From Symploca sp. SIO1C2 (GTDB taxonomy: Bacteria; Cyanobacteriota; Cyanobacteriia; Cyanobacteriales; Coleofasciculaceae): 56,736 bases of DNA. Position 1 is the stretch's first letter. Each line of letters begins with the position of its first letter. The stretch is from the NCBI GenBank assembly GCA_010672925.1, contig JAAHFP010000041.1, positions 1 to 56,736 of the forward strand, given 5' to 3'. The notes under the pieces are model-generated. The model searched no databases. It saw only the letters and a program-made list of their open reading frames with translations, and was not told the DNA's origin. This document shows positions 20,642 to 39,431 of this stretch, one piece after another. The position numbers and the translations under genes were made by a program.

Positions 20642-23416
20642 TCAGTTAGGCGGATAACCAGCTCGTTTCAAAGCTCTGTGTGCTATGGGATTCTGAGTTT
20701 TCTGGTATATTGTCCATACAGCACATTTAGCTGTATCTCGCACATCCGCGATCGCATCATTGCGCCAAAGATGGATTAAACTGCCTACTGCTGCTTCTGC
20801 TGCTAGATTACCTAAAGCTTGTGCTACCGCAGCACGAACAAATCGGTCTTTTCTTTGCAGGTTGTTCAACAAAGGTTCGATGGCTTGAGTACAACCGATG
20901 GCGCCAAGAGTATGAGCCGCAGCAACCCGTACTTCGGGATGAGGATCTTCCAAAGCTTCAATCAAAGAGTTGATTATTTCTGGATCTACGTTATCTCCAC
21001 TATCTTCTAGAGCTTTTTTCAAACTCTCTGCTGCTTGGAATCGCTCGTAAGCATCATTTCTGTTGGTTAATTTGAGTAGTAGAGTAGGGATGGTTTTCTC
21101 TACTTCGATGGGGTTGGGTGAGTCTATACGATGAGCAAATTGCCAATAGCAAGCTGCTTTGGCTTTAACCTCACCAGAGTTGCTGTACTGGTAGATATCG
21201 TACAAAGCTGCTTCCGCTGCTTGACGCACATTGCTGATTACTTCCTCCCGATTGACTCGATCAAGAGCCTCAATTGCTTCTTCTACTCTTAATTTACCAA
21301 GAGTCTTTGCCGCTGCTTCCCGGACAAATCGGTCTTTGTCATCGAGAGCTTTAATTAAGGCTTTAATAGAGGAACCCACCCCTAACCCCTCCAAGGAGGG
21401 GAACTGGAGGTAGGAGGGAAGGCAAGCTTTTTCATCTTGTTTAACTGGTGGGTTATTTTCGCCACGCTGCAATAGATTTCCCAATGCTATTGCTGCTGCT
21501 GCTCGTTCATCTGGGTTATTCTTGTAGTCAATTAGTAATTGGGTCAGTTTTTCGGCTACGGTTTTGCTGTCTAACTCTTCTCCTTCCTGAGCATTCAGTA
21601 GTTCTTCTACCTTGACTGACTTGCCTGGTTGGATAGCTTGTCTGGCTTGCCCAATTTCTGGTTCTTCTCCTGCCAAAGCAGCAATTTTGTACAAAACTTG
21701 TTCCGTTGCCTCCCGCACATCCCGGATAGGATCATTGCGCATCAGCCGAATTAAGGGTTTAACTGCTAACTGTAAAACTGTGGTTCTACCGGAGGGTCTC
21801 TGAGCTAAATTTCCCAGTACTACCGCAGCATCTTCACGCACATAACGGTCTTGATGAGTGAGTTGGTTCACTAATTGAGGTGCTATATTGACATCACCAT
21901 AGCTTCCTAAGGATCTAATGGCTACTGCACAAACATCGGCATTCTGATCCTGCAATGCTGTCAGTAAGGCTTGCTGTGCTAAGGTGAACAAATTATTGTG
22001 GGGAATGTCAATTTTCCCCATCTCCCCGTCTCCTCGTCTCCGCGTCTCCGCGTCCCCGCGTCTCCGCGTCCCCGCGTCCCCGCGTCTCCGCGTCCCCACA
22101 TCTCCCAATGCTTCTGCAGCTTCGTAACGGATATCAACATTTGGGTGTGTTTGTAACAGCTGAATCAGCGGTTTAACTGCTTGTAAGTCTCCTAAATTCC
22201 CCAAAGCAATCCAAGCTGGAGGAAAATCTGGTTGAATTTTTAGAGCTTGATGGTAACTTGCTTTAGCTTGTTCGGGTTTACCTAAATCTTTATCTGCATT
22301 ACCTCGATTAAACCAAGCACGGAAGTCATTTGGTTGAATTTTTAGAGCATGATCATAATTAGCGATCGCTTGTTGATAATGACCTAAATTCTTTAAAGCA
22401 ATACCCCGGTGATGCCAAGCATTGTGGTAATCTGGTTGAATCGCTAGGGCTTGGTCGTAGCTAGCCACCGCTTCCTCATAGCGACCTAATTTATTAAGGA
22501 CATCACCTCGGTGACTCCAACAAGAACAGTGGTAAGGATTGAGCCTTTGGGCTTGATTATAACTGGCAATTGCCTCTTCATAAAGACCTAAGTTTTCTAA
22601 GGCAAGACCTCGGTAGTGCCAAGTTTGGTAATTATCAGGTTGAATGGCGAGAGCTTGATCGTAACTGGTAACTGCTGCTGTGTAATTTCTCGCTGCACTC
22701 TGTAAAGTTGCCAACTCTAGAAGTAACTCCTTTCTCCTACTAATAAAAAGATGTGGCTCTTCCAGAATTTCTTGAATTTCCAAGATTTTCTGACTCTGTT
22801 CTTGGGAAGTCAGCTGACGATATTGACGATAGCTTCCGGATTGCAAGATGCGCAATGATTCTTGCTCTACCACTTCCGGCTTGGGTAGAAATTCAAACAC
22901 TCCAGAATTCCAGTCAAAAAAGTCAGGAGCACGGCGAATAAAGTATTTTAGTCCAAATAGAGGCAACAGAAAGACGAAGCAGATGCCAAACTCATCTCGA
23001 AAACGTTCTCGCTGGAGATTTAAATTACCTAAAACCCTGGGTACAGAATCTATTTTGTAGTAATCCCCCTGGCCACCAAATCCTGAGGTAATATATTTCA
23101 GAAAGGAATTTTCTATGCCCTTGATAAACAGAATATCGAGCTGACGTTTTTGGGTGCGCTTGTTTACCAGTCTATGTAAATTATCAATCGGTTGTTCTAA
23201 GCTTTCCACCTCAATCAATTTTTTGGTTAGGTCTTGCTTAACCTTGGTAACTAAACCCTCTCCTTCTGCTGGAGAACAGCGGACAAATAGTAGCCGAAAA
23301 CCATCTGTCCACTCTAAGGAACGTACTAAAGCTTGATATTCAGCTTGGGTTTTAGCTTTGGTATCACTCCACTCCGATGTCAGAGATTGGCTAGGATAGG
23401 AAATGTCATACTTCAT
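20642..23416 (-). CDS. Inactive-STAND / TPR / HEAT repeat protein
   Basis: 924 aa from the ATG at 23416; the frame opens 87 nt further upstream, but that extension is encoded by GGGGAAT repeats and is not trusted. Residues 1-190 look like a STAND-type P-loop domain without Walker A (FRLLFVRCSPAEGEG in its place) and with the family-like FDWNSGVFEF end. Four TPRs follow (about 245-400), then HEAT (PBS-lyase-type) repeats in two blocks (about 410-920). Repeat-derived inserts occur at 22020-22108 (RRRGDA units) and 21376-21413. It lies behind a P-loop ATPase gene in the same direction (194-nt gap), so the two probably act together; an adaptor or sensor role is inferred. Confidence 0.8.
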   Translation of the reverse strand: MKYDISYPSQSLTSEWSDTKAKTQAEYQALVRSLEWTDGFRLLFVRCSPAEGEGLVTKVKQDLTKKLIEVESLEQPIDNLHRLVNKRTQKRQLDILFIKGIENSFLKYITSGFGGQGDYYKIDSVPRVLGNLNLQRERFRDEFGICFVFLLPLFGLKYFIRRAPDFFDWNSGVFEFLPKPEVVEQESLRILQSGSYRQYRQLTSQEQSQKILEIQEILEEPHLFISRRKELLLELATLQSAARNYTAAVTSYDQALAIQPDNYQTWHYRGLALENLGLYEEAIASYNQAQRLNPYHCSCWSHRGDVLNKLGRYEEAVASYDQALAIQPDYHNAWHHRGIALKNLGHYQQAIANYDHALKIQPNDFRAWFNRGNADKDLGKPEQAKASYHQALKIQPDFPPAWIALGNLGDLQAVKPLIQLLQTHPNVDIRYEAAEALGDVGTRRRGDAGTRRRGDAETRRRGDGEMGKIDIPHNNLFTLAQQALLTALQDQNADVCAVAIRSLGSYGDVNIAPQLVNQLTHQDRYVREDAAVVLGNLAQRPSGRTTVLQLAVKPLIRLMRNDPIRDVREATEQVLYKIAALAGEEPEIGQARQAIQPGKSVKVEELLNAQEGEELDSKTVAEKLTQLLIDYKNNPDERAAAAIALGNLLQRGENNPPVKQDEKACLPSYLQFPSLEGLGVGSSIKALIKALDDKDRFVREAAAKTLGKLRVEEAIEALDRVNREEVISNVRQAAEAALYDIYQYSNSGEVKAKAACYWQFAHRIDSPNPIEVEKTIPTLLLKLTNRNDAYERFQAAESLKKALEDSGDNVDPEIINSLIEALEDPHPEVRVAAAHTLGAIGCTQAIEPLLNNLQRKDRFVRAAVAQALGNLAAEAAVGSLIHLWRNDAIADVRDTAKCAVWTIYQKTQNPIAHRALKRAGYPPN
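21376..21413 (-). repeat. Hairpin repeat translated inside the TPR/HEAT gene
   Basis: ACCCCTAACCCCTCCAAGGA plus GGGG is the same repeat family as in the CHAT gene (about 14864-14886). On the coding strand it yields FPSLEGLGVGSS, between two HEAT repeats. Confidence 0.8.
22020..22108 (-). repeat. Octanucleotide array (CGCGTCYC) translated inside the TPR/HEAT gene
   Basis: About eight to ten copies of CGCGTCTC/CGCGTCCC. Three 8-mers make 24 nt, so the coding strand reads an 8-residue repeat, TRRRGDA(G/E). It sits between two HEAT repeats and gives a highly basic-acidic linker. The same array is found in frame in two other genes of this window. Confidence 0.9.
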
Positions 23417-23610
23417 ATAGCGTTTCTTATTAGAATGAGGTACAAAGTTTCTGGTTTTCACCGAATGGGGAATGGGGAATGGGGAATAGGGAATGTATAG
23501 CAACCGCCAAGCGATTAGGATAACGTCATATGCTGAAACCTTTACCTATCAATCTTTTTCCTTCTGCCCTCTGCCCTCTGCCCTCTACCTTTTGCTATAC
23601 CTCACTAGAC
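23417..23610. repeat. Intergenic heptamer arrays
   Basis: GGGGAAT copies (about 23465-23494) and CTGCCCT copies (about 23565-23587) fill much of the gap between the ATPase and TPR/HEAT genes. No promoter is evident; read-through from the ATPase gene is plausible. Confidence 0.7.
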
Positions 23611-24942
23611 TTAGAAATGCTGTAATTCCTTCAATGCTGCTTGAAATTCTTTAGTACTTTTGAGCAAGGGATGTACATCACGCCACAGCTGAATATTTCC
23701 TTGGTCATCGGAGTGGCGGTATTCTAAGATGCAGCGATTAAATAAGAGACTACGATGTAAATCATTATTACGTGTTAGTTTGGAACGGTAGACTTGAGCC
23801 AACTCTATCCACTGGTGGTCATCAACGCTATTGCTGTAGATATTTCTGGCTTTAGTCACCGCCTGTTGTACAGCTTTCGCGGAGATTGGTAGACTATCAG
23901 TAAGAGTAAGGGCTGATTGCATCATTAAGAGCAAATTCCGTACATGTCCCCCGCTCATTAAACATAACTTTTCTAGGGTTTCCTGCCCATCAAAGATATC
24001 CGTTGTGAGGGATAAGTTAGGATTAACTTGACTAACTCGCTTAGCAATCACTTCTTTGACTTTGTTAAGTCCTGGCTCATAAACCTCTTCATCTGGAGTC
24101 CTCACCATAATCATGGGTAAAATCTGAGCATCACCGTAAATATCTAGCAGATCTGTTGCTCGGTTAGAGTAGAGCAGAGAAATGGGAACTGTATAGATCA
24201 AGTGACAATCTAGAGCCTTAAGTTGTTTACTACGATCTAAGAAAATATGCTCATGATTTAGCTTGCCATCTTCCTGGATAACTGGTACAATCCGGTCTAA
24301 GTTATCGGCAATTACTACTAATTTATCGTATCCAGCGGGCAGCTGTTTCGTTGCCTCAGCGATAAACTGATTCAAAGCGTCAATCAAAGTAGTAGTATGA
24401 AGATTCAGTTGCTCCCGAATTTTTTGACGCAGGGTTGGTGTGGCTCTTAAATTAGCTGTAAGTTGACCAAACTCGGAGATTTGTGCTTCCACACTCATAT
24501 TTTCTAGGGATATTTCTGTGAGAGCTAAATCTTTTAAGTTTTGCCACCGTTGCTGTAACCAGTTCAACAACGGTTTAGGGTCAGCATTTTTTAGTTCTTC
24601 CAATAAATGTCTAGTACAAGCTAGAAGAATATCAGTATACTGAGCATCTTGTGGATTGATATCTTCTTCGTCAGCGGCAAAATAGACAACAAAACAATGA
24701 TTGTCTTCCAAATATTTTTTCAGTCGTAGCAATTCCGTTGATTTACCTGCTCCCCGATGACCAGCATAAAGTTGATAAGTATTCTGATGGGAGAACAAAA
24801 TATCTCGCCCTAACCATCTGATAATATCACCAGAGCCCCGCACTTCCTGACAATCAACATAGACAGGATCTCCAGCCAGTAACGGTTGAAATGGGTTAAA
24901 TGTGTTGTAAATTTGTTTGAGGAGTTTTAAATCTTGCACCAT
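23611..24942 (-). CDS. AAA/STAND-like P-loop ATPase partnered with TPR/HEAT protein
   Basis: 443 aa. Walker A is GHRGAGKST (Lys67) and Walker B VVIADNLDRI near residue 215, followed by a sensor-like LIYTVPISLL. MSGGHVRNLLLMMQSAL near residue 335 is the arginine/helical-lid region seen in STAND and ORC-like ATPases. The C-terminal ~80 residues (HQWIELAQVYRS, LHRSLLFNRCILEYR) fit a winged-helix tail. No membrane segment. The ATG follows GGAAAG. First gene of a presumed two-gene unit with the inactive-STAND/TPR/HEAT gene; by analogy with conflict-type systems it may be the ATP-driven switch. Confidence 0.85.
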   Translation of the reverse strand: MVQDLKLLKQIYNTFNPFQPLLAGDPVYVDCQEVRGSGDIIRWLGRDILFSHQNTYQLYAGHRGAGKSTELLRLKKYLEDNHCFVVYFAADEEDINPQDAQYTDILLACTRHLLEELKNADPKPLLNWLQQRWQNLKDLALTEISLENMSVEAQISEFGQLTANLRATPTLRQKIREQLNLHTTTLIDALNQFIAEATKQLPAGYDKLVVIADNLDRIVPVIQEDGKLNHEHIFLDRSKQLKALDCHLIYTVPISLLYSNRATDLLDIYGDAQILPMIMVRTPDEEVYEPGLNKVKEVIAKRVSQVNPNLSLTTDIFDGQETLEKLCLMSGGHVRNLLLMMQSALTLTDSLPISAKAVQQAVTKARNIYSNSVDDHQWIELAQVYRSKLTRNNDLHRSLLFNRCILEYRHSDDQGNIQLWRDVHPLLKSTKEFQAALKELQHF

Positions 24943-25421
24943 AACTTTCCATCTCGCAGTGGATTCTTCTTATACTCAATTGCTTTTTTTTACCTAATTT
25001 GCACCTTACTAAGGGATACAAGGGCATTATGGAGAATTCCGGAAGGCTCCTACTGAGACCAGTTTTTTTGATGTACAATGCAAGATGGGAGTAGACATAG
25101 CTAGCTGCTTGGATGCTATAACCCACCTTGGATTTAAATCCAAGGCTAATAGCTTAAGTCCATTGAAATGGACTAAATTTTTAGGATTTATTTTATAAAA
25201 ATATACCTATTGTAGGGTGTGTTAGCGAAGCGTAACGCACCAAATTGCAGTTACAATCATTTTCAAAAATGACCTTAATTTAATAACGAAGTTTCCCCAT
25301 GTCTGATTACCAATGAAGAAAAACATGAACAGTTTCCTGAATTATAAGCGATCGCTGATCTTGTAGGTTGGGTTGAGGCAACGAAATCCCTAATGAACTA
25401 ATTACTCATTACTGACATGCC
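24943..25421. repeat. Repeat-rich intergenic region
   Basis: Contains a palindromic element at about 25119-25185 (CCTTGGATTTAAATCCAAGG, then CTAATAGC and AGTCCATTGAAATGGACT), related to two units at 55795-55945. It also contains the common cyanobacterial palindrome GTGTGTTAGCGAAGCGTAAC plus GCACC at about 25216-25242. No gene is supported here. A promoter for the ATPase gene at 24942 must lie in it. Confidence 0.75.
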
Positions 25422-28421
25422 CTAGGGTGAATCCGGTTCTTTTTGCTTCTCCTCCACTAGCTTAAATTCACCGTCAACAACCTTAACAAGAATAGGTTCA
25501 CTTAGGCGCTCTCCATCCGAAGTAAACTGGAGTGCTTCTCCTGATGTTTCACTGGATGAAAGATTAACTTCTCGAAGTCTTTGCAGAACTTTTGTTCTAT
25601 CGGGATTTCCCAATAATGTTTGAATAAAAGCCTGAGTTGCGTCATAGCTAGCGGCTGTTCGCCAGCTTACATCTCCTCCCCATTGCCGTCTTGCTGCTTG
25701 TGAAAACTCTTGTGCTTCTGATGTTCCTCTAAACCAAGGAACCGCTAGAATTAAACCTTCAACAGCTTTTCTCTCTTCATTTAAGGTTGTGTTGCTATAG
25801 AGAGTATCTCCGCCTAATAATTTTAGCCCGCGCCCATCTGGATTGGCTGGTCTAGATCTCAGCTCAGCGTTAACTCTAGCAACTTCAATTGCCTGAGACG
25901 TTAGTGCCTTATTGGGGAATAATAAACCTGCCTCAGCTTGGTCCCGAAAAATGCTGCGTGGGACTTCGGATTCCATATTGAGAGTTGTATTGCTCCAATC
26001 TATCTTATCAACTATGCGGCCTCCTAATTGTTCAAAGCTTTTTTGAAATGCTTCTCTTAGACTATTGCTGTAGAAACTATTAGTATTATAGAAAATAACG
26101 GCTTTGTCTAAACCAAGATTATTTTTAGTGTATTGGGCCAGTATTTGACCAGCTGCTTCGTCAGAAGAGACTGCTCGAAAGAAGACTCTTCCTTGTAACA
26201 AGGGACTTGTACTGGTAGGAGAAATCATTGCTAAGTTAGCTTTTTCATATTCAACTAGTGCTGCTTTACTGGCATCACTAGAACTATGGCCAATCACACC
26301 TAGTACAGACGGGTCTTTCTCCAATTCCTGAGCTACTTTTTCAGATTTATCTGGTTCATTACCATCGTTAGCAATTACTAATTCTAATAATCGACCGTTT
26401 AGTCCACCGGAAATGTTGAATTGATTTTGTGCCTGCGCAACACCCCGTAAAATTTCTTGAGCTGAGAGTGTACTCTTGATTGCTGACACAACCACTGCTA
26501 GGGTTAAAGGAGAACCTTGCTCTCGAGCTAAGGCATTGTTGTAGTAAATCAGAACTTCTGGATCATTGGGACTCTCAGCAACAGTTTGTTCAAAAAAATT
26601 AGTTGCTTCAGAGTAATTGCCTTGCTTGAACTCTTTAATGCCACGCTCAAAATTAGGGTTAAACTTAGAAGTAAAAATAGTACGCTCACCACGGCTAAAC
26701 CTTTCTGGCTCCCATTCAGGTACATAAAATGGCTGTGGAGGTAGTATAGATTTACAGATACCATCTATGCGCTGTTGATCTGGTGGGCAAGAATTTACCC
26801 CTAAATAATACCCAATCCCAATAAGCAGAGGAATTGTCACAACTGCTGCGACCACAATTGCACCTACAAAGATTCGCCTATCTTTATCAACCAGAGGTGC
26901 AAGCTCTGAAAGTTTATCTCTTGCAATGGCATTGTTAGGATCAATCTTTAAAACTCTTTCAAAATGCTGCTTTGCCTGTTTGAACTGTTGCTGGTTTCTC
27001 CATAAATCATTTCCGTAGCTGAGTAGCGACTGCACCAACCCTTCTTGATTACTTATTGGGTCAACTTTGTACGCTCGAGTATAAAATTCAACAGCTTTGC
27101 TGAAATCTTCCACAGTCAAAGATATATCTGCAATCGCAAATAGAGCACCAAAGTGGTTGGGATTAAACTCCAAAACTTGCTCACAAGCTTTGCGCATTTT
27201 TTTCAACTTATTCCCGCCATAATTCTCCCATTTTTCAGCTGCCCTAAAAAAGTTATCAAAATCTTTGTCAAGCTTCTCCAGTTGCCATATTTCTTGGCGC
27301 AGTGGGTAGTGGCTAACCAACCAACGACGAACCAATTCCACTTTTACTTTACGCCCTGTCTCGTCCAGAAAAACTTTGTTAATTAATTGTTTGGCTGCTT
27401 GCTTTATTTCCTTTGTTGGGATGACTCCATACTCTTGAAGTAAAATTAACGGATTCTCTGGAAGCATTGCCTGTCTTTGCTTAGCTCTCTCTTGAGCCTT
27501 TGCTACTGCCGAGAAGACTACTTGCTCTGCAATAGGTAGCCCGTCCCAAAACCATGCCAACCCTCCTTCTGCGCTCTCAATGGCTTTGTCTACAACCTTC
27601 TCTACATCTACCTGAGTGACATTCCAGTTACCTTCATTCCTGGCTTGACCAAAAAGAGCGAAGCAGATTACTTGAGTAAAATAAGGATGTCCAGCTGACA
27701 GCTCTAAAATTGCTTTTATTGCATTCTGATCATATGCCAAAATTCCATGAGCTGGATTGAGGATCAATCGTTTAGCACTTGTCTCATCTAGTAAACCAAT
27801 TTCGTGATTAGGAGCTCGTTTAAACAGAGTCAGTAGTTGTTGCATATCATCAAGTTTGCGTCCAACTACCGGAATTATAAATAACTTTTCCTGCTCATCA
27901 ATCAATGACTTTAAATAGGGAAAAAAATACTTATCTGCGAAGTTAGATCGTTGATTGTTATCGCGGTTGTCAGTGCTTAAAACATCAAACTCATCAAGTA
28001 ACAAGACTAAATTTTTATTGTCTAATACCTGATATACACTGGTCAAGAAGACACGAGAGAAGAAAGTTAAATCAGCTTCTAACTCTTGAGCTGTTGGCAG
28101 TGTAACGCTATCTTCTAACTCAAGGTAATCGACAATTTCTGTCGCTAGGTTCTCTAGAACAACACTCAAGGGTAACAAACTTTGGTCTTGTAGATCAAAA
28201 GGAACAAAATGAAACCCATCACATTCAACAGAGTGGGGAATCTGGAAGAGTACAGATGACTTCCCGATGCGACGTTGACCGTGCAATAAAATAACCTGTT
28301 CACCCTGAATCAGGCTATCTTCAAGAAAATGGAACAAACTTTCCCGTCCGAAAAACCTTCCTTTTTCAGTAATAGGACGACCGATAATATAAGGATTTCT
28401 CCTACTAGTTACATGAGCCAT
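25422..28421 (-). CDS. Transmembrane STAND ATPase with periplasmic amino-acid-binding domain
   Basis: 999 aa from the ATG at 28421 (homologous start to the neighbouring gene; an outer ATG adds 14 residues). Order: STAND NTPase (about 8-370; Walker A GQRRIGKSS with Lys54, Walker B LVLLLDEFD), TPR-like helices (about 385-505), one membrane helix (about 514-540), a short Cys-containing stalk and TPR, then a type-I periplasmic binding protein domain of the Leu/Ile/Val-binding family (about 635-985; DPSVLGVIGHSSS, MISPTSTSP). Ligand binding outside would be linked to ATPase state inside. Third gene of a compact operon, 63 nt behind the preceding one. Which ligand and which effector are unknown. 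Confidence 0.88.
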   Translation of the reverse strand: MAHVTSRRNPYIIGRPITEKGRFFGRESLFHFLEDSLIQGEQVILLHGQRRIGKSSVLFQIPHSVECDGFHFVPFDLQDQSLLPLSVVLENLATEIVDYLELEDSVTLPTAQELEADLTFFSRVFLTSVYQVLDNKNLVLLLDEFDVLSTDNRDNNQRSNFADKYFFPYLKSLIDEQEKLFIIPVVGRKLDDMQQLLTLFKRAPNHEIGLLDETSAKRLILNPAHGILAYDQNAIKAILELSAGHPYFTQVICFALFGQARNEGNWNVTQVDVEKVVDKAIESAEGGLAWFWDGLPIAEQVVFSAVAKAQERAKQRQAMLPENPLILLQEYGVIPTKEIKQAAKQLINKVFLDETGRKVKVELVRRWLVSHYPLRQEIWQLEKLDKDFDNFFRAAEKWENYGGNKLKKMRKACEQVLEFNPNHFGALFAIADISLTVEDFSKAVEFYTRAYKVDPISNQEGLVQSLLSYGNDLWRNQQQFKQAKQHFERVLKIDPNNAIARDKLSELAPLVDKDRRIFVGAIVVAAVVTIPLLIGIGYYLGVNSCPPDQQRIDGICKSILPPQPFYVPEWEPERFSRGERTIFTSKFNPNFERGIKEFKQGNYSEATNFFEQTVAESPNDPEVLIYYNNALAREQGSPLTLAVVVSAIKSTLSAQEILRGVAQAQNQFNISGGLNGRLLELVIANDGNEPDKSEKVAQELEKDPSVLGVIGHSSSDASKAALVEYEKANLAMISPTSTSPLLQGRVFFRAVSSDEAAGQILAQYTKNNLGLDKAVIFYNTNSFYSNSLREAFQKSFEQLGGRIVDKIDWSNTTLNMESEVPRSIFRDQAEAGLLFPNKALTSQAIEVARVNAELRSRPANPDGRGLKLLGGDTLYSNTTLNEERKAVEGLILAVPWFRGTSEAQEFSQAARRQWGGDVSWRTAASYDATQAFIQTLLGNPDRTKVLQRLREVNLSSSETSGEALQFTSDGERLSEPILVKVVDGEFKLVEEKQKEPDSP

Positions 28422-28484
28422 ATTCTTTCTACAGTTTTTTGAAACTTTAAATAGTTTCACCAATGACTATGTTTACTAAAAACT

Positions 28485-31367
28485 TCACACCCCAGTAAGG
28501 ATAGGAATTAATTCACGAATTCCTCCAGCAATAGACTGTACATTATCTTTGTTGTCCCACACAAAATTTATTGCTTGCTTAATTTGATGTGCTTGCCCTC
28601 GGTTTAGTATAGAGAAAATTCTTTCTCTTTGGGCAACTTCTGCTTCACTATTGTTGACAATCTCCTGGACTACCCACTGCTGCATAACAGACGAAGTAAA
28701 AACATAGACCAGCTTCTGCTCATTTAATTGACTTTTAATAATGCCACGTCTTTCTATATCTTTAAGTTTTCCAGCCTGCTCTTTGAAAAAATCTTCAACA
28801 CCTCTCAAGTCATAGCGTCTTTTGGCTATTTCTCCTCTCACATAGGCAAGGGCAATAAGCCTCAAAAGCATTCTTTCGATATCATTGAGAGATTGCCAAA
28901 TCCCACGAAGTACAAATTGACTATTGCCTTCAAAGTCAGATGCAAATGTTTCAAAAAAATGATTTTGTTCCTGTTCCAAGGTACGGTATAGGTAAAAACC
29001 AGCCATCTGAAGCAGAACAGGATAACCACCCGTAACTTTTTTGACCCTTTGCTGCAAATCATCTCTCTTGATCGACAAACACCCCTTCTTTCTCAGCTGA
29101 TCACCTATAGGGCTCCACAATTTATCTATTTCTTCATCTTGGAAAGGTTTCAGTGGTTGAGATGGCAAATCACTGTAAATAGATTTTGAACTTAGTTCAC
29201 TAAGAGGTTGAGATGAAGTCATAATAGCAGACATATGTCTACCATAATCCTGCTCTGCCAGATGTCGAAATTCTTTAAAAAACTTTATCATCTCTTCTTC
29301 AGAATAATTGTTTTTTATCTGGAGGGTAGCATCATAATTATCTAGCAATAATACTAAGTATTGTTCCTGAGCCTTAATCTTTTTAAGTATCTTCTTAATA
29401 TGATTTTTTTCTATTTTTTTTGCTTCCTGTACTGTGTAAATTACGGAATTGAGAGAATCAATTTGATTCATTTCAAACTGTAAAATATTGTTATTTTCAG
29501 ATGTATTTTGTACTTCAAATTTCTCTTTCAATGAAATCAATTCATCTCTTAGTTCTTCTATAATCTCTTGCCAAAAAGCTGAAGCTGAGAAATCATAAAT
29601 AGCTTCACAATCTAGATAAATAAGGAAGTATTTATTCTCAATGTTAAGCCCTTTATGATGCCGCCAAGTATTAGGGTCAGCTAGATACTTTAGAAATGAA
29701 GATTTACCTATACCTAAGCTTCCATAAAAAATGATACTACTGGAATTGAAAATTTGGTCAAAGGCAAAATTAACCTCCTGATTTCGACCCACAAATTGAT
29801 CTGGTGGTACGTAAGTCCCAGTAACGAAAGGAGAACGTAAAGCTTTACGATTTAATTCTCCAGCTTGTTGCAATTTCTTCTCAGCTAATCTATTGCTCGG
29901 CTCTAGAGCTAAAATCTCGCCGAACTGTTGCTGTGCCAAGGAAAACTGTTTTTGTTGTATTAAGTAGTCACCGTATTGCATCAGCGATCGCACGAGTCCT
30001 TCTTGATAAAGTAGAAGATCTAGTTTGCAGCCCCTCCGATAACATTCGATCGCTTTTGTGAATTCCTTAACATCTAAATATCTATCTGCTAACTGTAACA
30101 AGGCACTGAAGTGGTTAGGATTGACTGCTAAAACCTGTTGATAAGCCTTAATTGCATCTTGGACATTGCCTTGTTGATATATTTTATCTGCTTCAATATA
30201 AAGCTGTTCAGCATCTGGTTCAAGTTTTTCTAATTCCTTTATTATTGTCTTTAAAGAATATTGTTTTACTATCCACTGTCGAACTAATTCAATTCTCACT
30301 TTGTAAGGCAAATTTTCCGACTCTTGACTCAAAAAGCCCCACTCGACTAGTTTCCTCGCTGCTCCCTTGAGTAGTTCTGTCTCAACTCCATATTTTTTAA
30401 GAAGTGTCAATGGCTCCCTCAAGCCAGACATAGCTCCTGTAGCATCTGGGTTTTGCTCTGAAGCTATTGTTGCAAAGATCACTCGCTCAGTAATAGGCAA
30501 TCCCTGCCAAAACCATACCAATCCTGCTTCACTAATTTCAGTTGCCTTATCTAAGATATTCTCCACATCAGCACAAGTTATCTGCCATTGTTGTTTATCT
30601 CTAGCCATTACGAAAAGAGCAAAGCAGATGACTTGAGTAAAATATGGATGACCAGCCGATAGTTCCAGAATAGCTTGTACTGCTTTTTCTTCATATTCTA
30701 GTGGTACGTCCTTGGTTGGTTGGATAATTAGCTGCTTGGTACTATTCTCATCAAGTAAACCAACATTATAATTAGGTGCTCCCTTAAATAGCTCTAGCAG
30801 TTTTGGCATATCATCTAGTTTGCGACCCACTACCGGAATGACAAATAACTTGTCCTGCTTGGCAATCAACGATTTCAAAAAAGGAAAAAAAAGCTGGCTA
30901 GCTGTGTTGGTTTGACTATCCTCTAAAACATCAAACTCATCAAGTAATAGCACTAGATTTTTACCATCTAATTCTTGATAAATTTGTGCTAGAAAATCAT
31001 GCGAGAATAGCTCAGAATTTTTGTCTAAATCCTCGACAGATGGAATGCTTCCACTATCTATCCCTAAATCAAGATAGTCAATGATTTCTATAGCGAGATC
31101 GTACAGTATATTACTTAATGGCAAATGACTTTTGTCTTGAAGATCGAATAAAACAAATTTAAACTTGTCTTTGTCTATAAAATAAGGAATTTGGGATAGC
31201 AGAGAAGATTTACCAATCCGCCTTTGACCTTGTAACAAAATAATATGTTCACTGTTATTCAGGTTGTCCTCAATCGACTCAAATAAACTTTCACGACCAA
31301 AAAACATTTCCTGTTCAGTGATGGGACGGCCAATAATGTACGGATTTCTCACAACTTTTTCAATCAT
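28485..31367 (-). CDS. Dual STAND ATPase (STAND-TPR-STAND), hybrid of its two neighbours
   Basis: 960 aa from the ATG at 31367, chosen for GGAGAG 9 nt upstream; an ATG 15 nt earlier is also in frame. First STAND domain about 8-370 (GQRRIGKSS, Lys53; LVLLLDEFDVL), TPR helices about 380-500, second STAND domain from about 515 (FVGRNQEVNFAFDQI; GSLGIGKSS, Lys555; YLVLLLDNYD), winged-helix and tail to the end (VYVFTSSVMQQWVVQEI). The N-half is close to the following membrane protein, the C-half to the preceding 435-aa protein. It may bridge them by like-with-like domain pairing. No membrane helix. Lies 26 nt behind the first gene. Confidence 0.88.
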   Translation of the reverse strand: MIEKVVRNPYIIGRPITEQEMFFGRESLFESIEDNLNNSEHIILLQGQRRIGKSSLLSQIPYFIDKDKFKFVLFDLQDKSHLPLSNILYDLAIEIIDYLDLGIDSGSIPSVEDLDKNSELFSHDFLAQIYQELDGKNLVLLLDEFDVLEDSQTNTASQLFFPFLKSLIAKQDKLFVIPVVGRKLDDMPKLLELFKGAPNYNVGLLDENSTKQLIIQPTKDVPLEYEEKAVQAILELSAGHPYFTQVICFALFVMARDKQQWQITCADVENILDKATEISEAGLVWFWQGLPITERVIFATIASEQNPDATGAMSGLREPLTLLKKYGVETELLKGAARKLVEWGFLSQESENLPYKVRIELVRQWIVKQYSLKTIIKELEKLEPDAEQLYIEADKIYQQGNVQDAIKAYQQVLAVNPNHFSALLQLADRYLDVKEFTKAIECYRRGCKLDLLLYQEGLVRSLMQYGDYLIQQKQFSLAQQQFGEILALEPSNRLAEKKLQQAGELNRKALRSPFVTGTYVPPDQFVGRNQEVNFAFDQIFNSSSIIFYGSLGIGKSSFLKYLADPNTWRHHKGLNIENKYFLIYLDCEAIYDFSASAFWQEIIEELRDELISLKEKFEVQNTSENNNILQFEMNQIDSLNSVIYTVQEAKKIEKNHIKKILKKIKAQEQYLVLLLDNYDATLQIKNNYSEEEMIKFFKEFRHLAEQDYGRHMSAIMTSSQPLSELSSKSIYSDLPSQPLKPFQDEEIDKLWSPIGDQLRKKGCLSIKRDDLQQRVKKVTGGYPVLLQMAGFYLYRTLEQEQNHFFETFASDFEGNSQFVLRGIWQSLNDIERMLLRLIALAYVRGEIAKRRYDLRGVEDFFKEQAGKLKDIERRGIIKSQLNEQKLVYVFTSSVMQQWVVQEIVNNSEAEVAQRERIFSILNRGQAHQIKQAINFVWDNKDNVQSIAGGIRELIPILTGV

Positions 31368-31393
31368 ATTTGTTCTCTCCATAGATAGTTGGG

Positions 31394-32701
31394 TTAAACA
31401 GAGAAGACACCTTCGGGAAGTGCATTCACGACTTTACCAATCCAGTTAAGAATAGAAGGTACTTCATCTTCATTATTCCATAGCCACCTAATTGCCGTTG
31501 TGACTTGCTCAGCTTGCTTGCGACTCATCAAGTTTACAAACACCTTCTGTCGTTGTTGCAGCTCTGTTTCATTACTGTTCCCAATCTCTTGAATTACCCA
31601 CCACTCCATCATAGAGGAAGTAAAGGAGTAAACGTTATTTCCTGCCTGGGCAGTGCGGACAATTACCCCCTGATCTTCGAGTTCATTCAGTTCTCGCTGT
31701 CTTTGGCTAAAGACAAGATCTATATTTCCTAAATCATACTGCTTTTTTTTGTGCAATCGACTCTGTAGATTCGAGAGAGCAATTAGCATTAAGAGTACTT
31801 GCTCGACTTCATTGGATAATAGCCAAATGGCTTGAAATAAGTGTTGTGTTGTAGAGAGAAACTCTTTAGCAAATGACTCCTGATCGGTAACTTGTGCAGC
31901 TTTCCTTAGAGTTCTATAGACCAAATGACCAGCATTCTGGAGCAAAGCTGGGTGTCCGTGAGCCAATTCAAAAATCCCCTCTTTCAAGGCTTGAGTCATG
32001 GGTGCGCGATCTAGCAATGAGTTAACTTCAGTGGCTGTGAATGGCTTAAGGGAAAGAAAGAGATAGTGATTGTACCAAGGAGAACTGCCAGGAGTGAGCA
32101 TCGGTCCAAGTTCATTGAGACGCCGGGATGAAGTGACAATCATTGAGAGATGCTTTCGTTCCTGAGAGTGGTAAGCCAGACTGCGACACTCACTTAAAAA
32201 CGTTTGGATTTCGGCTTCTGTGTATTGCTTCTGTGGGTAAAGAGCATGATCATAGTTATCGACTAGTAACAACAAAAATTTGTGTTGTTTTCCTAGCTTC
32301 CGCAGTATTCGGCGTAGGCTATCCTTGGTTGTCTTTCCTTGTTCGAGTAATTTATCGATTTCAGCTTGTAGGGTTGGTGCGCTATCCAACTCATCCCTCA
32401 TAAGGGTCAGAGCTTCTTCCCAAAAACGAGAGGTACTAAAGGGGAGGAGATTTAAGCAATTCAGCAGTACAATTACTGCTTCAGACGGATCTTGTCCCTG
32501 AAGTTGCCAAACTTCCGGCAAAGTCAGTTGTTCTAAAAATGAAGACTTGCCGATTCCTGGACTGCCCCAAACCGCCAAGTTGCTGCGGCTATGTATTTGG
32601 TCAAAGGCGGTGGCAATCTCAGCCATTCGTCCGACAAAAGCTTCTGGAGACGAAACCGGTTGACCGACAACAAAGGGATTTGGTAAAGGATTTTGGGACA
32701 T
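31394..32701 (-). CDS. STAND ATPase, first gene of the three-gene operon
   Basis: 435 aa. NPFVVGQPVSSPEAFVGRMAEI leads into Walker A GSPGIGKSS (about residue 51), Walker B FLLLLVDNYDHAL, a sensor-like LSMIVTSSRRL, a GHPALLQNAG helical-lid motif and a winged-helix end (NVYSFTSSMMEWWVIQEI), then a short helical tail (TAIRWLWNNEDEVPSILNWI). It matches the C-terminal half of the next protein along its whole length. Walker motifs are intact, so ATP binding is expected; the output is not visible in the sequence. It overlaps nothing and is preceded by repeat DNA. Confidence 0.87.
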   Translation of the reverse strand: MSQNPLPNPFVVGQPVSSPEAFVGRMAEIATAFDQIHSRSNLAVWGSPGIGKSSFLEQLTLPEVWQLQGQDPSEAVIVLLNCLNLLPFSTSRFWEEALTLMRDELDSAPTLQAEIDKLLEQGKTTKDSLRRILRKLGKQHKFLLLLVDNYDHALYPQKQYTEAEIQTFLSECRSLAYHSQERKHLSMIVTSSRRLNELGPMLTPGSSPWYNHYLFLSLKPFTATEVNSLLDRAPMTQALKEGIFELAHGHPALLQNAGHLVYRTLRKAAQVTDQESFAKEFLSTTQHLFQAIWLLSNEVEQVLLMLIALSNLQSRLHKKKQYDLGNIDLVFSQRQRELNELEDQGVIVRTAQAGNNVYSFTSSMMEWWVIQEIGNSNETELQQRQKVFVNLMSRKQAEQVTTAIRWLWNNEDEVPSILNWIGKVVNALPEGVFSV

Positions 32702-33496: not shown

Positions 33497-34453
33497 ATGC
33501 CACGCTCCTCACGCTCCCTCAAAGTTGACCAAAATTACATCCCACAAGTCAAATCAGCTGTCAAAGAAAAGGGTTATGCTCGCCAGCAGGATTTAGCAGA
33601 TAAGTTAGGTATATGTTTAAGTACTCTCAGTAACTACCTCAACGGCAAACCGGTAGACTATCAGATTTTTGTTGAAATCAGTGAACACTTAGAACTTGAC
33701 TGGAAAGAAATCTCTGGTTGTGGCTTCTCTGTTTATGTAGAACGCTCTGATATCGAATCTTCCTGTTATCAAGAAATATTGAAACCTGGTTCCCTGATTC
33801 GGATTAAGGCTCCTAATTTTATGGGCAAAACTTCCTTGATGGCTTGGATTCGCGATCGCGCAGCAGAGCATAATTATAGAACAGCATATTTAAACCTGAA
33901 TTCGGCGGGTAAAACAGATTTTACTAACCCTGATTATTTTTTGAGGTGGTTCTGCCTTAAAGTTAGCCACAGCATGGAATTGCCCAATAGAGTTACTGAG
34001 TACTGGGATGAGGAAATGTTTACTAGTAAAGTCAATAGTACGGACTATTTTCAGGAATATCTACTGGTGCAAGATGATACTCCCTTGGTTCTCTGCCTAG
34101 ATGAAGTGGAGCGAGTATTTCCCTATCCCGAAGTTGCCACGGAATTTTTAGGACTGCTCAGGTATTGGCATGAACTAGCCAGGATTAATCCTATTTGGGA
34201 ACGACTGCGGTTGGTAATGGCTTATGCCAGAGAAGTTTATATCACCCTGAATATTAACAAATCACCTTTTAATGTAGGACTTCCTATCGAGTTGCCAGAA
34301 TTTACCCCACAACAGGTACAAGAGTTAGCTCAACGTCATGGACTAGATTTAAATTTAGAGCAAGTACAGCGGCTAATAGAGATGGTAGGCAGACGCCCCT
34401 ATCTAGTGGAGCAAGCGATTGTTAAGAATGTAGAATTAAGAATTAAGAATTAA
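33497..34453 (+). CDS. HTH plus AAA_35-like NTPase, C-terminally truncated
   Basis: 318 aa. Residues 8-65 are a Cro/CI-type helix-turn-helix (ARQQDLADKLGICLSTLSNYLNGKPVDY), a usual N-terminus of cyanobacterial STAND proteins. An AAA_35-type P-loop domain follows (LIRIKAPNFMGKTSL, Lys111; LVLCLDEVERVF). The protein ends soon after GRRPYLVEQAI, where relatives continue for 100 or more residues into a winged helix and often an effector region. The last codons (VELRIKN) are made of a GAATTAA heptamer repeat, so the gene was probably cut by repeat DNA. Two decayed partial copies lie upstream. Function is doubtful. Confidence 0.8.
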   Translation: MPRSSRSLKVDQNYIPQVKSAVKEKGYARQQDLADKLGICLSTLSNYLNGKPVDYQIFVEISEHLELDWKEISGCGFSVYVERSDIESSCYQEILKPGSLIRIKAPNFMGKTSLMAWIRDRAAEHNYRTAYLNLNSAGKTDFTNPDYFLRWFCLKVSHSMELPNRVTEYWDEEMFTSKVNSTDYFQEYLLVQDDTPLVLCLDEVERVFPYPEVATEFLGLLRYWHELARINPIWERLRLVMAYAREVYITLNINKSPFNVGLPIELPEFTPQQVQELAQRHGLDLNLEQVQRLIEMVGRRPYLVEQAIVKNVELRIKN

Positions 34454-34545
34454 GAATTGGGAATGGGTAAAAAATAGTTTTCCTAATTCATTACTCATTA
34501 CTTATTACTTATTACTTATTACTTGTTACTTATTACTTAATAAAA
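34454..34545. repeat. Heptanucleotide array (ATTACTT)
   Basis: GAATTAA/GAATTGG copies followed by about seven copies of ATTACTT between the truncated HTH-AAA gene and the WD40 gene. The same heptamer is found in the ~300-bp elements at 47.9-48.6 kb and 56.0-56.3 kb. Confidence 0.85.
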
Positions 34546-37500
34546 ATGGTATATCAAGTCGGAGCAAGCCTCCCTGCTAACGCTCCTAGCTATGTGGTAA
34601 GGCAAGCTGATCAAGAATTATATGATGCTTTGCGGGCAGGGGAGTTATGTTATGTGTTGAACTCGCGACAGATGGGGAAGTCTAGTTTACGAGTGCGAAC
34701 TATGCAAAAGCTGCAAGCTGAGGGAGTTGCTTGTGCTTTTATTGATTTAACTGCTATTGGTACTGAAGAAGTGACTCCAGGGCAATGGTATGGTGGCTTA
34801 CTCAAGACGATAATCAACAACAAGAGTTTTCAGCTGTTGGAGCAGTTTAATTTGCGAACCTGGTGGCGGGAGCGGGAAATGCTCTCTCCGGTGCAGCGCT
34901 TGCGGGAATTTATTGAGGGAGTTCTGCTCAAGGAAATTTCTCAAAATATGGTGATTTTTATCGATGAAGTGGATAGCATCCTTAGCTTGGGTTTCAAAGA
35001 TGATTTTTTTGCTTTTATCCGATCTTGTTATAATCAACGAGCGGATGATGCAAAATACAGACGTCTGACCTTTGCTCTGTTGGGAGTGGCCACACCTTCG
35101 AGTTTAATTCAAGATAAAACGCCGTTTAATGTTGGTCTAGCGGTTAAGTTGCGGGGCTTTCAATTAGATGAAGTCAAGCCTTTAGCCGAGGGATTGTCGG
35201 AACAGGTAAGCAATCCGAAAGCCGTGCTCAAGGAAATTTTATCTTGGACAGGAGGACAACCGTTTCTGACCCAAAAGCTGTGTAAGTTGATTGTTACTTG
35301 TGAGTTATCTATCCCCCCAGGGCAAGAAGCAGCATCAGTAGAAAAATTGGTGCGATCGCGTATTATAAAAGACTGGGAATCTCAGGACGAACCGGAGCAT
35401 TTGCGGACAATACGCGATCGCTTGCTGAGTAATGAGCAACATACTGGACGGTGGTTGGGATTGTATCAGCAGATTTTGCAAGAGGGAGCAATTGTTGCTG
35501 ATGATAGCCTGGAACAAACAGAATTACGATTTAGTGGGTTAGTCGTCAAACAGCAGGGTAAATTAACAGTTTATAACCCCATTTATCGGGTAGTTTTTAA
35601 TCAAACTTGGGTTGACAAACAGTTAGCTTCTATGCGTCCTTATAGTGGAGCGATCGCTGCTTGGTTAGCGTCCAACCGTCAGGATGAATCACGTCTATTG
35701 CGAGGTAAGGCATTGCAGGATGCATTGGAGTGGAAAGCTCACAAAATGTTGGGTGTTGAAGATGATAATTTCTTAGATGCCAGCCAACAATTAGATAGGC
35801 TGGAGATACAAAGAAAGTTAGATGCAGAACGTACTAAGAAGACTGAAGCATTATTAGCAGCACAGCAAAAAACCGCCAGACTGCAAAGATTTGTTCTGGG
35901 GGCAGTTAGTAGCGCCTTGCTAGTTACCAGTATGTTGGGATTAGCAACTTTCTTTCAGTATCGCAAAGCAGTAAATAGCAAACGCCAATCATTAATCAGC
36001 GAGATTCAGGCGCTTACTAACTCGGCGGAAGCACTCTTTACTTCTAATCAAAGGTTGGATGCACTGCTAGAAGCAATCAAGGCGAAGCGACAATGGGAAA
36101 AGTTGGGTACTAGGGTAAGTCCAAAAACCAAGCTGGAGATAGAAAGTGAGTTAGAAAGAGTTCTAGGGCAGGCGGTTTATGGAGTAGTTGAGTACAATCG
36201 CTTACCAGAAAATAAGAGAGTCTTCGATATCGCTTTCAGTCCCCAGAGTAATCTGCTTGCCTCTGCTTCTGAAGACAATACCATTAAACTCTGGAACCAG
36301 GAAGGTAAATCACTCGCAACCCTTAAAGGACATCAAGGTTGGGTTTACGGAGTTGCCATTAGTCCTAATGGTAAGATGATTGCCTCGGTGGGTGAAGACA
36401 AAACCCTCAGACTCTGGAACCTCGACGGTAAGGAGTTGAAGATGATTCAAGGGCATACTGATGAGGTATGGGGAGTTGCTTTCAGTCCTGATGGTCAGAC
36501 TATTGCTTCAGCGAGTGCGGATCAAACCGTTAGACTCTGGAACCTTGACGGCACTCTGAGAAATACTCTCAGAGGACATAGCAAAAAGGTATGGGGAGTT
36601 GCTTTCAGTCCTGATGGTCAGACTATTGCTTCAGCAAGTGCGGATCAAACTGTCAAGCTGTGGAAACTCGACGGTACTCTACTAACTACCCTAGCAGGTC
36701 ATCAAGAAGAGGTGAGAGCAGTTGCTATCAGCCCCAATGGTAAAGTGATTGCCTCGGCGAGTCAGGACAAAACTGTCAAATTATGGAATAGCGACGGCAC
36801 TTTACGCCACACTATCGAGGGACATAGTGCTCCAGTTTACGGAGTTGCTATCAGCTCTGATGGTAAAATTGCTTCAGCAAGTGTGGATAATACTGTCAGA
36901 CTCTGGAACCAAGAGGGTACTTTGCTCCAAACCCTGGAAGGACATCGTGACCGAGTTTCTGAAGTTGTCTTCAGTTCTGATGGTAAGATGATAGCTTCCG
37001 CGAGTTGGGACAAGACTGTCAGACTCTGGAAGCTAGAGAATGATTTGTTTACTACTCTCAGTGGACACAGTGATGTGGTTATCGGAGTAAATTTCAGTCC
37101 TGATGGTCAGACTATTGCCTCAGCTTCTGATGACAAAACTGTTAGACTGTGGAACCAGGAAGGTACTTTACTCCAAACCCTACCAGGGCATAATGCTGAA
37201 GTTTACGGAGTTACTTTTAGTCCTGACGGTAAGACCATTGCCTCATCAAGTAAGAACAAAATCATCAAACTCTGGAACCTGGAAGGTGAGGAGCAGAAAA
37301 CTCTCAAAGGGCATGATGATGAAGTGTGGGGAGTTGCTTTCAGTCCTGACGGTAAAACTATTATCTCCGGAAGTGGAGACAAAACTATCAAACTTTGGAA
37401 CATTGATGGTACTCTGCAAACTACCCTAACAGGACATAAAGAAAAAGTGTGGGGAATTGCTATTAGTCCTAAGCAGCAAATGATTGCTTCCGGTAGTGAG

Positions 37501-38007
37501 GACAGGACTGTCAAACTCTGGAGCTTGGAAGGTACTTTATTCAAGACTATTATAGGGCATCAGGATGCAGTTAATGATGTTTTCATCGGTTCTGCTGGTA
37601 ATTTAATTGCCTCAGCTAGTTCTGATCAAACTGCTAAACTCTGGACTAGTGAAGGTAAGTTGTTACATACCCTCAAAGATCATCAAGAGACAGTTAGGGG
37701 AGTCTCCATCAGTCCCGATAGTAAGATGATTGCCACTGGTAGTGGGGACAAAACTGTCAAAATTTGGGGAAGAGAAGGCAAATTGCAGAAAACTTTATAT
37801 GGTCATAGTGGCGGAGTCTGGGGATTGTCTTTTAGTCCAGATGGTAAGATGGTTGCTTCTGCCAGTGAGGATCAAACGGTGATTCTCTGGGAATTAGAGC
37901 AAATTCTTAGTCTGAATGAGCTAGAGTATGGTTGCCAATGGGTGCGGGATTATTTGAAGTACAATCGCAATTTGAAGGAAGAGGATCGTAGTTTGTGTGA
38001 CTACTAG
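34546..38007 (+). CDS. Transmembrane STAND NTPase with 14 WD40 repeats
   Basis: 1153 aa. N-terminal AAA_35-type NTPase (Walker [11 protein letters not shown], Lys45; [11 protein letters not shown]), with [13 protein letters not shown] as lid motif near 230. A coiled stretch and one membrane helix (about 449-472) follow, then 14 WD40 blades (about 560-1125), i.e. two seven-bladed propellers. Blades 3 and 4 are nearly identical ([17 protein letters not shown]), which points to recent duplication. The usual GH and WD positions are conserved. The propeller should act as ligand- or partner-binding sensor and the NTPase as switch; no effector domain is present. Placement of the propeller relative to the membrane is not clear. 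Confidence 0.92.
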
Positions 38008-38372: not shown

Positions 38373-39413
38373 TCAACCGGATTGGATATGATTCGTAGAC
38401 GATGTCGTAAGTACCCGTAATATTTTATCAAAATTGTTAAAATCACCGACAATTCTTCGGGCAGGTTGAGGCCAAACTCTCAGAAGTGTTGGCGTCGCTG
38501 AAATCTGATTTTCTTCTGCTTGTTCGGGATGCTTGAAAATATCAACAATTTTTAAGGTATAAGGATGACGTAGAGAATTTTCTAACAACTGGTGTAGGTT
38601 TTTGAGAATCTCCTCAGTTGTCTCACTATGCCCAGAAATAAATAAACGCAGTACATAACCTACAGTGTTTGGTGATTCAGGGTTAGGTGAAATATCCCTA
38701 GCATCAGCTGATGATGTTTGGAGCAATTGCGAATCGTTAGTTTGCTCCTTTATCTTTATAGCCCTCGATGGGTTTAATATTTGATGAGATTTTTCCCATA
38801 CTTCCCCTGTAATCTTTCGAGCATCTACCGGTCCCTCAGGGGTCGGGAATTCCTGGGTTGAAGAGAGGGTTTTATCTTGGTGAGGAATGTTTACTTTAGT
38901 TCTAGATTCTATGGTAGAAGTAGTAGGGTAAACTTCAACCTGTTTCTTAGGTTTTCTAACAGAGGAGTAGGGATAAAATAACCTTTCAGTTTGTCCCAAG
39001 CGTACAATTAAGTCGTGATCTTCCCAAAGTTGGGGAAACTGATGACGATAGGTTTCTAATACCATCGGCTCCCACAACTCCTGCTGCCAGGAAGCCACCT
39101 GCCAATGTAGATTACTACTACCAAACACGACATTGAGTAGTGCTTGATGATGTTGTACAGGTCGATAAAGTTCAGCAGCGGTTCGCAGTTGCTGGGTTCT
39201 AGGGTCGATCCACTTATCGATAGTAGCAGTATATCCTGGTATCAAGAAATGAGGTGGCTCTGGCAAGCCCAGCATGTCTTGGAGAGCAGCACAAAGATGC
39301 AGGTGCCAGCGACCCTGCTTGCTTGAATCAATACAATAAATTAAATCCCCCCCAGGTGTAAATAGGGCAATGCCCTTAAACAGCTGGGGTAAGGAAGGTT
39401 GGTTTTTTCTCAA
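38373..39413 (-). CDS. Fusion protein with C-terminal KaiB-like domain
   Basis: 346 aa from a TTG at 39413 (no upstream ATG in frame; the TTG lies 18 nt after pilT). The N-terminal ~140 residues (FKGIALFTPGGDLIYCIDSS, PPHFLIPGYTATIDKWIDP) form a conserved-looking domain I cannot name. About 100 low-complexity residues follow, then a thioredoxin-like KaiB domain (about 250-335): YVLRLFISGHSETTEEILKN, YTLKIVDIFKHPEQAEE, ISATPTLLRVWPQPARRIVG. KaiB and the SasA sensor domain share this signature. Position right behind pilT suggests a link with pilus motility rather than being the clock KaiB itself; that link is inference. Confidence 0.8.
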   Translation of the reverse strand: MRKNQPSLPQLFKGIALFTPGGDLIYCIDSSKQGRWHLHLCAALQDMLGLPEPPHFLIPGYTATIDKWIDPRTQQLRTAAELYRPVQHHQALLNVVFGSSNLHWQVASWQQELWEPMVLETYRHQFPQLWEDHDLIVRLGQTERLFYPYSSVRKPKKQVEVYPTTSTIESRTKVNIPHQDKTLSSTQEFPTPEGPVDARKITGEVWEKSHQILNPSRAIKIKEQTNDSQLLQTSSADARDISPNPESPNTVGYVLRLFISGHSETTEEILKNLHQLLENSLRHPYTLKIVDIFKHPEQAEENQISATPTLLRVWPQPARRIVGDFNNFDKILRVLTTSSTNHIQSG

Positions 39414-39431
39414 GGTAAACAGCTCAAATTC

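Follow-up and report, generated by a model that had tools for sequence, protein, structure and literature searches.

A three-gene STAND operon in Symploca

The window analysed here, a 56,736-nt stretch from Symploca sp. SIO1C2 (contig JAAHFP010000041.1, assembly GCA_010672925.1), carries an operon of three genes for STAND-type ATPases, C, B and A, which are consecutive minus-strand open reading frames (ORFs) in the ORF list of the window and are transcribed in the order C–B–A (Table 1). The operon is one version of a wider modular system of mostly filamentous cyanobacteria; what a first-pass annotation of this DNA described is confirmed and turns out to be more general. The gene order given there, with gaps of 26 and 63 nt, is correct if B starts at its second in-frame ATG (31367) and A at its first ATG (28421), a possible alternative to the TTG that opens its ORF.

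Table 1 Features of the operon and of the two genes beyond its last gene
Feature	Position	Strand	Description and basis
C	31394–32701	−	435 aa; standalone STAND-type ATPase, near-invariant first gene of the core; Pfam AAA_16/AAA_22/nSTAND1
B	28485–31382	−	965 aa; N-STAND–TPR–C-STAND fusion; blastp and HMM architecture N8–398, T392–516, C515–958
B N module	30210–31382	−	NTPase and winged-helix-like region; 54.6% to A N module, secondary structure
B C-type STAND half	28509–29840	−	P-loop and Walker B intact; 34% to C over 458 aa
A	25422–28463	−	1013 aa; N-STAND–TPR–one transmembrane segment–TPR–type I periplasmic binding domain; Pfam, AF2, Foldseek
A N module	27237–28415	−	HMM N, residues 17–409
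A single hydrophobic (transmembrane) segment	26814–26870	−	From residue 532; hydropathy scan
A type I binding domain	25434–26510	−	Peripla_BP_6; Foldseek 4q6b; phmmer 4mlc/4q6b; predicted outside the membrane
D	23611–24942	−	KAP/AAA_16-like ATPase, same family as the fused N-TPR-D module; associated, possibly separate transcript
E	20642–23503	−	N-terminal domain, TPR and HEAT (Pfam); gene after D; associated

Comparison of the cut domains by blastp bore out the kinship of the two halves of B with its neighbours. The N-terminal STAND modules (N) of A and B match at 54.6% over 381 aa (E = 8e-141) and their TPR regions at 47% over 100 aa (E = 6e-28), and the second half of B aligns with the whole of C (34% over 458 aa, E = 5e-78). 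As these matches go far beyond chance, B is an A-like N-TPR module fused to a full-length C-type STAND. The two halves of B match each other only at E = 0.02, and C matches the B N module at 24% (E = 2e-8), so N and C are two families that are only distantly related. Pfam recognizes AAA_16, nSTAND1 and TPR models in A and B, and no TPR in C. Walker A and Walker B motifs are intact in A, C and both halves of B, the two P-loops of which read GQRRIGKS and GSLGIGKS. They are present in most of the 114 N and 92 C sequences aligned; the misfits to a strict pattern are 10 of 78 (Walker A) and 12 of 78 (Walker B) standalone C sequences, and 3 of 66 and 12 of 66 N sequences of the binding-domain type.

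A conserved core of two genes

A search with B in 37 related genomes revealed repeated gene clusters. A contig scan with 14 C proteins then matched 196 stretches, 95 of which encode relatives, and the best 80 of these 95 gave 77 loci, all with cyanobacterial titles. The host genera are mostly filamentous, Microcystis viridis (L102) being an exception. A complete C-only ORF occurs in 72 of the 77 loci; in the other five (L101, L107, L112, L117 and L126) it is split, broken, cut off or present only as a fusion. Using hidden Markov models (HMMs) for N, the TPR region (T), C, D and the periplasmic binding domain (PBP), we counted neighbours in the window, L047–L049 and L051–L127, which together hold 78 complete C genes. 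An N gene follows on the same strand within 1 kb in 75 of the 78 (median gap 34 nt, range −82 to 565). The three C genes without one are those of L049 and L051, in which C is fused behind other N-terminal parts, and that of L052, at a contig end. This pairing rules out the three-gene operon, which the first-pass annotation took as the basic unit, in favour of a two-gene core, C followed by N-TPR-X, where X stands for an exchangeable C-terminal part.

The two families also keep company across genomes. Among 388 genomes of the class (C at E = 1e-30, N at E = 1e-45, best four candidates per genome scored), C occurs in 32, N in 31 and both in 31. At these thresholds N was never found without C, and the sole C without N is a piece of about 100 residues (G092). 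By coordinates, the two genes are adjacent and in the order C–N in 29 of the 31 genomes; the exceptions have them on different contigs (G346) or N before a partial C (G108). Two receptor genes of the A type stand in tandem after 27 of the 78 C genes. The N tree mostly places the first receptor of such tandems apart from the second, which suggests heteromeric receptors. One receptor has a duplicated N-TPR in a single chain (L056:14333–18859; N-T-N-T-PBP, 1508 aa).

Fusions of N and C

N and C share one ORF in 10 of 78 loci (the window and 9 of the 77 named loci). A quick tree of 92 C sequences, including 11 fused C halves, requires three changes to explain the fused halves, all of them forced by starred branches, and the N-C fusions fall in at least three groups on it. 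These groups were named after the tree was seen, and the membership of L099 and L110 in the window group has a support of 33. In approximately unbiased (AU) tests, a single clade of all 11 fused halves, and with it a single origin, is rejected (p = 0.0029). So are joint clades of the window group (with L099 and L110) and the Moorena group (p = 3e-5), of the Trichodesmium/Okeania and Moorena groups (p = 3e-6), and of the window, L056 and L064 with Trichodesmium/Okeania (p = 2e-50).

By blastp, HMMs and trees, the first half of B lies inside the N family and its second half inside the C family, as the first-pass annotation had expected. Its statement that B is a fusion of its two neighbours holds in that an N module like that of A and a C-type domain are united in B. 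It does not hold as recent history, because both halves group with the B halves of L056 (Iningainema) and L064 (Nostocaceae), with Shimodaira–Hasegawa-like approximate likelihood ratio test (SH-aLRT) support of 100 on the C tree and 97 on the N tree; a recent origin from the neighbouring genes is thereby ruled out.

The three-gene order C, N-TPR-C, receptor recurs in three other loci, L056, L064 and L087 (Okeania), and in these as in the window B and the receptor share one C. The B of L087 belongs to another fusion group than those of the window, L056 and L064, so the same layout was probably reached twice. That fusions do not form one clade argues for a real functional link between N and C, as a relay or a mixed oligomer would need. 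Layouts arrived at in different fusion groups are the strongest argument for a working pair; the adjacency of N and C, together with the joined protein, suggests that the two ATPases work together, and a mixed oligomer of the two is plausible. Moorena bouillonii keeps the two arrangements separate: a cluster of C and N-TPR-C lies about 8 kb from a divergent one in which another C accompanies two receptor genes. The Moorena B copies of L055, L117 and L075 are broken by a stop or truncated, and that of G016 (L033) is open (928 aa).

The exchangeable part

We found at least seven kinds of X, two of which are represented by A and B. The commonest is a transmembrane segment with a binding domain (A type). 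Others are a C-type STAND (B type), a KAP-like STAND ATPase of the D family (N-TPR-D), a Ser/Thr kinase (L054 and L126), nSTAND1-WD40 (L123; L105 is cut off), SH3 (L102), a transmembrane segment without a known domain, and short helical tails of a Nostoc type (7 sequences) and a Leptolyngbya type (8 sequences). The kind of X changes 18 times on the N tree, both tail types being counted there under one label. The two tail types are nevertheless not treated as one family, since no significant similarity between them was seen (hhalign probability 1%, with no phmmer match listed). Relatives of the Nostoc-type tail occur in 21 of 57 genomes; of 7 among 12 such relatives that were scanned with Pfam, 5 have pentapeptide repeats, 1 has CHAT and 1 has nothing. 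The tail itself has no Pfam match above the cut-off, which leaves an identity with TRADD-N no more than a possibility, and one Leptolyngbya-type tail scanned alone gave only a match below the cut-off, to a ketoacyl-synthase model.

A shared neighbourhood allows exchange of X to be followed at one place. Genes for methylenetetrahydrofolate reductase (MTHFR, metF) and a Trp/Tyr-type tRNA synthetase, families identified by Pfam on two and one members, respectively, lie upstream of C in the same orientation in 18 of 80 loci each, 17 of which have both. The MTHFR loci are L052, L053, L059, L061, L065, L067, L076, L083–L086, L090–L092, L103, L118, L125 and L127. Their X is a tail in 13 (6 of Nostoc and 7 of Leptolyngbya type) and D in 3; N is cut off in L091 and absent at the contig end in L052. 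The neighbourhood spans families and, where X is visible, is always of the tail or D type, except at L074, where the N gene is cut off. The D proteins of Calothrix and the Nostoc-type tail proteins are sisters on the N tree (support 96). The common neighbourhood and this sister relationship indicate that X was swapped at what is apparently one inherited locus. At L074:9317–11293, an MTHFR-like N-terminus and C share one open frame, which may reflect a genuine fusion or a misassembly.

Among the 40 largest neighbour families of the 80 loci, no recurring downstream effector gene stood out; the frequent families are MTHFR, the Trp/Tyr-type tRNA synthetase and WD40 proteins, along with synteny among close relatives.

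Predicted structure and topology

AlphaFold2 (AF2) models of A and B reached mean predicted local distance difference test (pLDDT) scores of 85.2 (alignment A2, 32 rows) and 87.8 (alignment A3, 34 rows), and predicted template modelling (pTM) scores of 0.52 and 0.63, which leave the relative placement of the domains unsure in both. Read by eye, the DSSP strings of the models suggest an NTPase core, helices and, at the end, a region resembling a winged helix. Both A and the C half of B have helices and a two-strand hairpin after the core, and the N half of B shows them more weakly. The best Foldseek matches of B include 2qen (an archaeal ATPase), CED-4 and ORC2, among many general AAA+ ATPases at similar E-values. 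By sequence profile, 2qen is the only solved relative of N (E = 0.0095), and C has none (best E = 0.087).

That A looks like a membrane receptor, as first suggested, is supported by one membrane helix followed by a type I binding domain. Pfam assigns residues 667–991 to Peripla_BP_6 (E = 6.6e-28). Foldseek matches this last domain to leucine/LIV-binding proteins (4q6b, TM-score 0.86 normalized by target), in agreement with phmmer (4mlc/4q6b, E = 1.7e-20), and 4q6b, its nearest relative, was solved with Leu. In 65 of 65 N-PBP proteins, selected for having both the N module and the binding domain, exactly one hydrophobic segment lies between the two, with a mean net charge of +2.4 before it and +0.6 after it. 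A single segment with more positive charge before than after predicts a binding domain on the outer side of the membrane and an ATPase on the inner side; we therefore infer that the ATPase and TPR of A face the cytoplasm. Ser729 (30/32), Thr750 (29/32) and Asp886 (23/32) are conserved in the binding domain, and we take them to be related to the amino-acid pocket of binding proteins. The ligand, presumably small, would most likely be an amino acid.

D and E, the genes beyond the operon

Genes D and E, on the same strand beyond A, have relatives within the system. D matches the C-terminal part of an N-TPR-D protein (L035; 33% over 440 aa, E = 1e-67). In Goleter (L114) the order is C, N-TPR-D, a standalone D and then a weakly E-like gene (E = 0.0013) with an nSTAND1 domain. 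At L049, in the same genome as the window, the gene in front of a protein with a C-terminal C domain is D-like (24%, E = 2e-17). Fused and adjacent D genes make D part of the same fusion network. To call D an exclusive part of the system would be too strong: its family has 16 match rows in the window’s own genome, window D included, and a second D–E pair lies on C203, where no C was found. The large family and the pair elsewhere mean that D and E are only associated with the operon. The N-termini of E and the L049 protein have no direct match by blastp, phmmer or hhalign; the only link between them is L114, which matches the L049 protein at E = 7e-19 and gene E at 0.0013. No remnant of a second receptor was seen by eye between A and D (24943–25421), where all three frames are broken by stops; no alignment search was made there.

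A possible mixed STAND oligomer and its alternatives

We hypothesize that the operon is a modular signalling system, made of a constant core of two STAND-like ATPases of different families, soluble C and an N-TPR protein carrying the exchangeable X, and that it works through a ligand-driven mixed oligomer. A small extracellular ligand, an amino acid being the likeliest, would bind the outer domain of the receptor A, with its ATPase and TPR inside, and this binding would release or reorient the N modules within. With ATP, these modules would assemble together with C into a mixed oligomer, in which B, a covalent N-C unit, could bridge the receptor N layer to C. The assembled complex might then recruit a downstream partner, perhaps D or E here, and a kinase, nSTAND1-WD40 or tail in other versions. 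The domain layout, the conserved C–N gene pair, the exchange of X and the scatter of N-C fusions over more than one clade are observations; contact between C and N, ATP-driven oligomerization, topology, ligand class, the direction of the signal and the output are what we would add to them. We give this proposal an even chance. A more specific form of it is tentative and, in our view, less likely than not: a membrane-spanning receptor resembling nucleotide-binding leucine-rich-repeat proteins (NLRs), with one or paired type I binding domains for an outside amino-acid-like ligand and a mixed two-STAND oligomer, in which repeated fusions such as B expose a contact that is normally non-covalent and the third module is swapped to change input or output.

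Several points weigh against the mixed-oligomer proposal. Genes that co-occur and fuse are linked in function, which need not mean that their products touch, and co-regulation alone is an alternative. The Fisher p value for the co-occurrence of C and N (5e-45) is uncorrected for relatedness and comes from the best four candidates per genome; more distant N-like ATPases (about 25–29% identity), outside these counts, are common in genomes without the system. The trees are quick ones with long branches meeting in the window’s group; a smaller number of fusions, some of them split again later, could also account for the three changes on the C tree, and the N tree needs five changes for the B-type label, of which starred branches force only two. 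Most loci lack B, so bridging by B cannot be the general rule, and a link between A and C does not require it.

An unlikely alternative is a conflict system for defence or programmed death, in which C and N-TPR form the constant core, X is an effector or a sensor of invaders, and activation kills or arrests the cell. The mostly filamentous hosts would suit it, as would the variation of X between relatives, a feature of the systems described by Kaur and colleagues, and the presence among its kinds of a kinase, nSTAND1-WD40 and a tail with relatives fused to CHAT or pentapeptide repeats. Transmembrane-plus-PBP modules are also among the variable C-terminal parts of another system with constant components, according to the 2020 account (PMC7159879). 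At L042:4353–9204, on the same contig as L051, C is fused behind a 240-aa region and lies near Uma2, vWA (CoxE-like) and AAA_5/MoxR-like genes, partners of the kind found in ternary systems, which may link C to one. Pointing the other way, PADLOC gave no strong match for A (PDC-S01, E = 0.0047), B (PDC-S01, E = 8e-5; mad8, E = 0.0047; each match about 60 residues) or C (none). On the neighbours it matched D with PDC-S20 (E = 6e-5) and E with HEAT/TPR repeat models (best E = 1.5e-12). Pfam finds no catalytic toxin domain in A–E, and no caspase, MoxR or vWA domain there either; EACC1 and VMAP were not searched with their own profiles. The MTHFR and tRNA synthetase neighbourhood indicates stable chromosomal sites. 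Searches with window C found nothing among 72,556 plasmid records at E = 1e-10 and nothing among 50,697 phage records at E = 1e-5; viral contigs gave no match to A1. Lacking strong PADLOC matches for A, B and C and any plasmid, phage or viral-contig relative, the operon is not supported as an anti-phage island.

Just as unlikely, in our view, is a reading in which the operon consists of separate two-gene units placed side by side, C serving A, B being independent and the arrangement reflecting co-regulation. It fits the divergent clusters of Moorena bouillonii, each with its own C, and the finding that no recent duplication connects window B with its neighbours. Set against it are the window, L056, L064 and L087, in which B and the receptor share one C, the B of L087 coming from another fusion group. 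Very improbable, finally, is an amino-acid uptake or nutrient regulator, in which a transporter would receive its substrate from the binding domain and the ATPases would have ordinary regulatory roles: the domain is of the amino-acid/amide type, but it is tethered to the N module in all 65 N-PBP proteins (chosen for having both), and no transporter permease or ABC ATPase occurs among the 17 window ORFs scanned with Pfam, other window ORFs not having been scanned.

To our knowledge, the STAND switches described so far (APAF1, NLRs, Avs and MalT) sense ligands inside the cell. A cyanobacterial family in which a STAND switch is tied to an outside amino-acid-type sensor, nearly always with another STAND gene next to it, would amount to a further class of bacterial receptors. 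The natural covalent N-C pair would make STAND hetero-oligomerization directly testable, and the exchangeable X would be a natural adapter kit.

Comparison with known systems

STAND NTPases, reportedly described by Leipe et al. in 2004 and including MalT, APAF1/CED-4 and NLRs, share with the proteins described here a P-loop NTPase, TPR superstructure repeats and, as the models suggest, perhaps a winged-helix-like region, and the structural matches of B include CED-4 and 2qen. They differ in that two STAND families here form a near-constant pair, are fused in some loci, and one of them has, in many cases, a sensor predicted to lie outside. Type I PBP receptors (LivJ/LivK-like proteins and the ligand domains of mGlu receptors) have the same fold, and the nearest solved relatives bind amino acids, whereas here one helix joins the binding domain to a TPR-STAND and not to a transporter or a G-protein-coupled receptor. 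The antiviral STAND proteins in PADLOC likewise combine a STAND ATPase with repeats, but A, B and C have no strong match among them and the sensor is predicted outside the membrane.

A parallel in organization is with the conflict systems of Kaur and colleagues (PMC7159879 and PMC8195603), reported to be enriched in multicellular bacteria. These have a conserved core with strongly varying fused modules, and transmembrane-plus-PBP and STAND modules are among the variable parts of the caspase/EACC1 System 4 (PMC7159879). Here, unlike there, the core is a pair of STAND ATPases and X is most often a PBP, with tandem receptor pairs after 27 of 78 C genes. The TRADD-N systems, for which PMC8195603 (2021) gives caspase and pentapeptide partners, resemble the present one in that the Nostoc-type tail has relatives joined to CHAT or pentapeptide repeats; window A, B and C lack the tail, which itself has no Pfam match above the cut-off. 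STAND sensors diversified by diversity-generating retroelements (DGRs) are described in PMC10907252. A two-STAND core with this layout is not described in the examined portions of PMC7159879, PMC8195603, PMC10907252 and PMC1592074, and no title or abstract opening in a literature search that reached few subscription papers names this C/N/PBP system.

Other genes in the window

Divergent from the operon lies another pair of ATPase genes (33497–38007, plus strand), encoding a helix–turn–helix (HTH) protein with an AAA_35 ATPase domain and then an AAA_35 and WD40 protein. A 346-aa protein with a C-terminal KaiB domain adjoins a type II/IV secretion ATPase-like gene at 38373–40841 (minus strand), and a TPR and CHAT (caspase-like) protein is encoded at 12993–15500 (plus strand).

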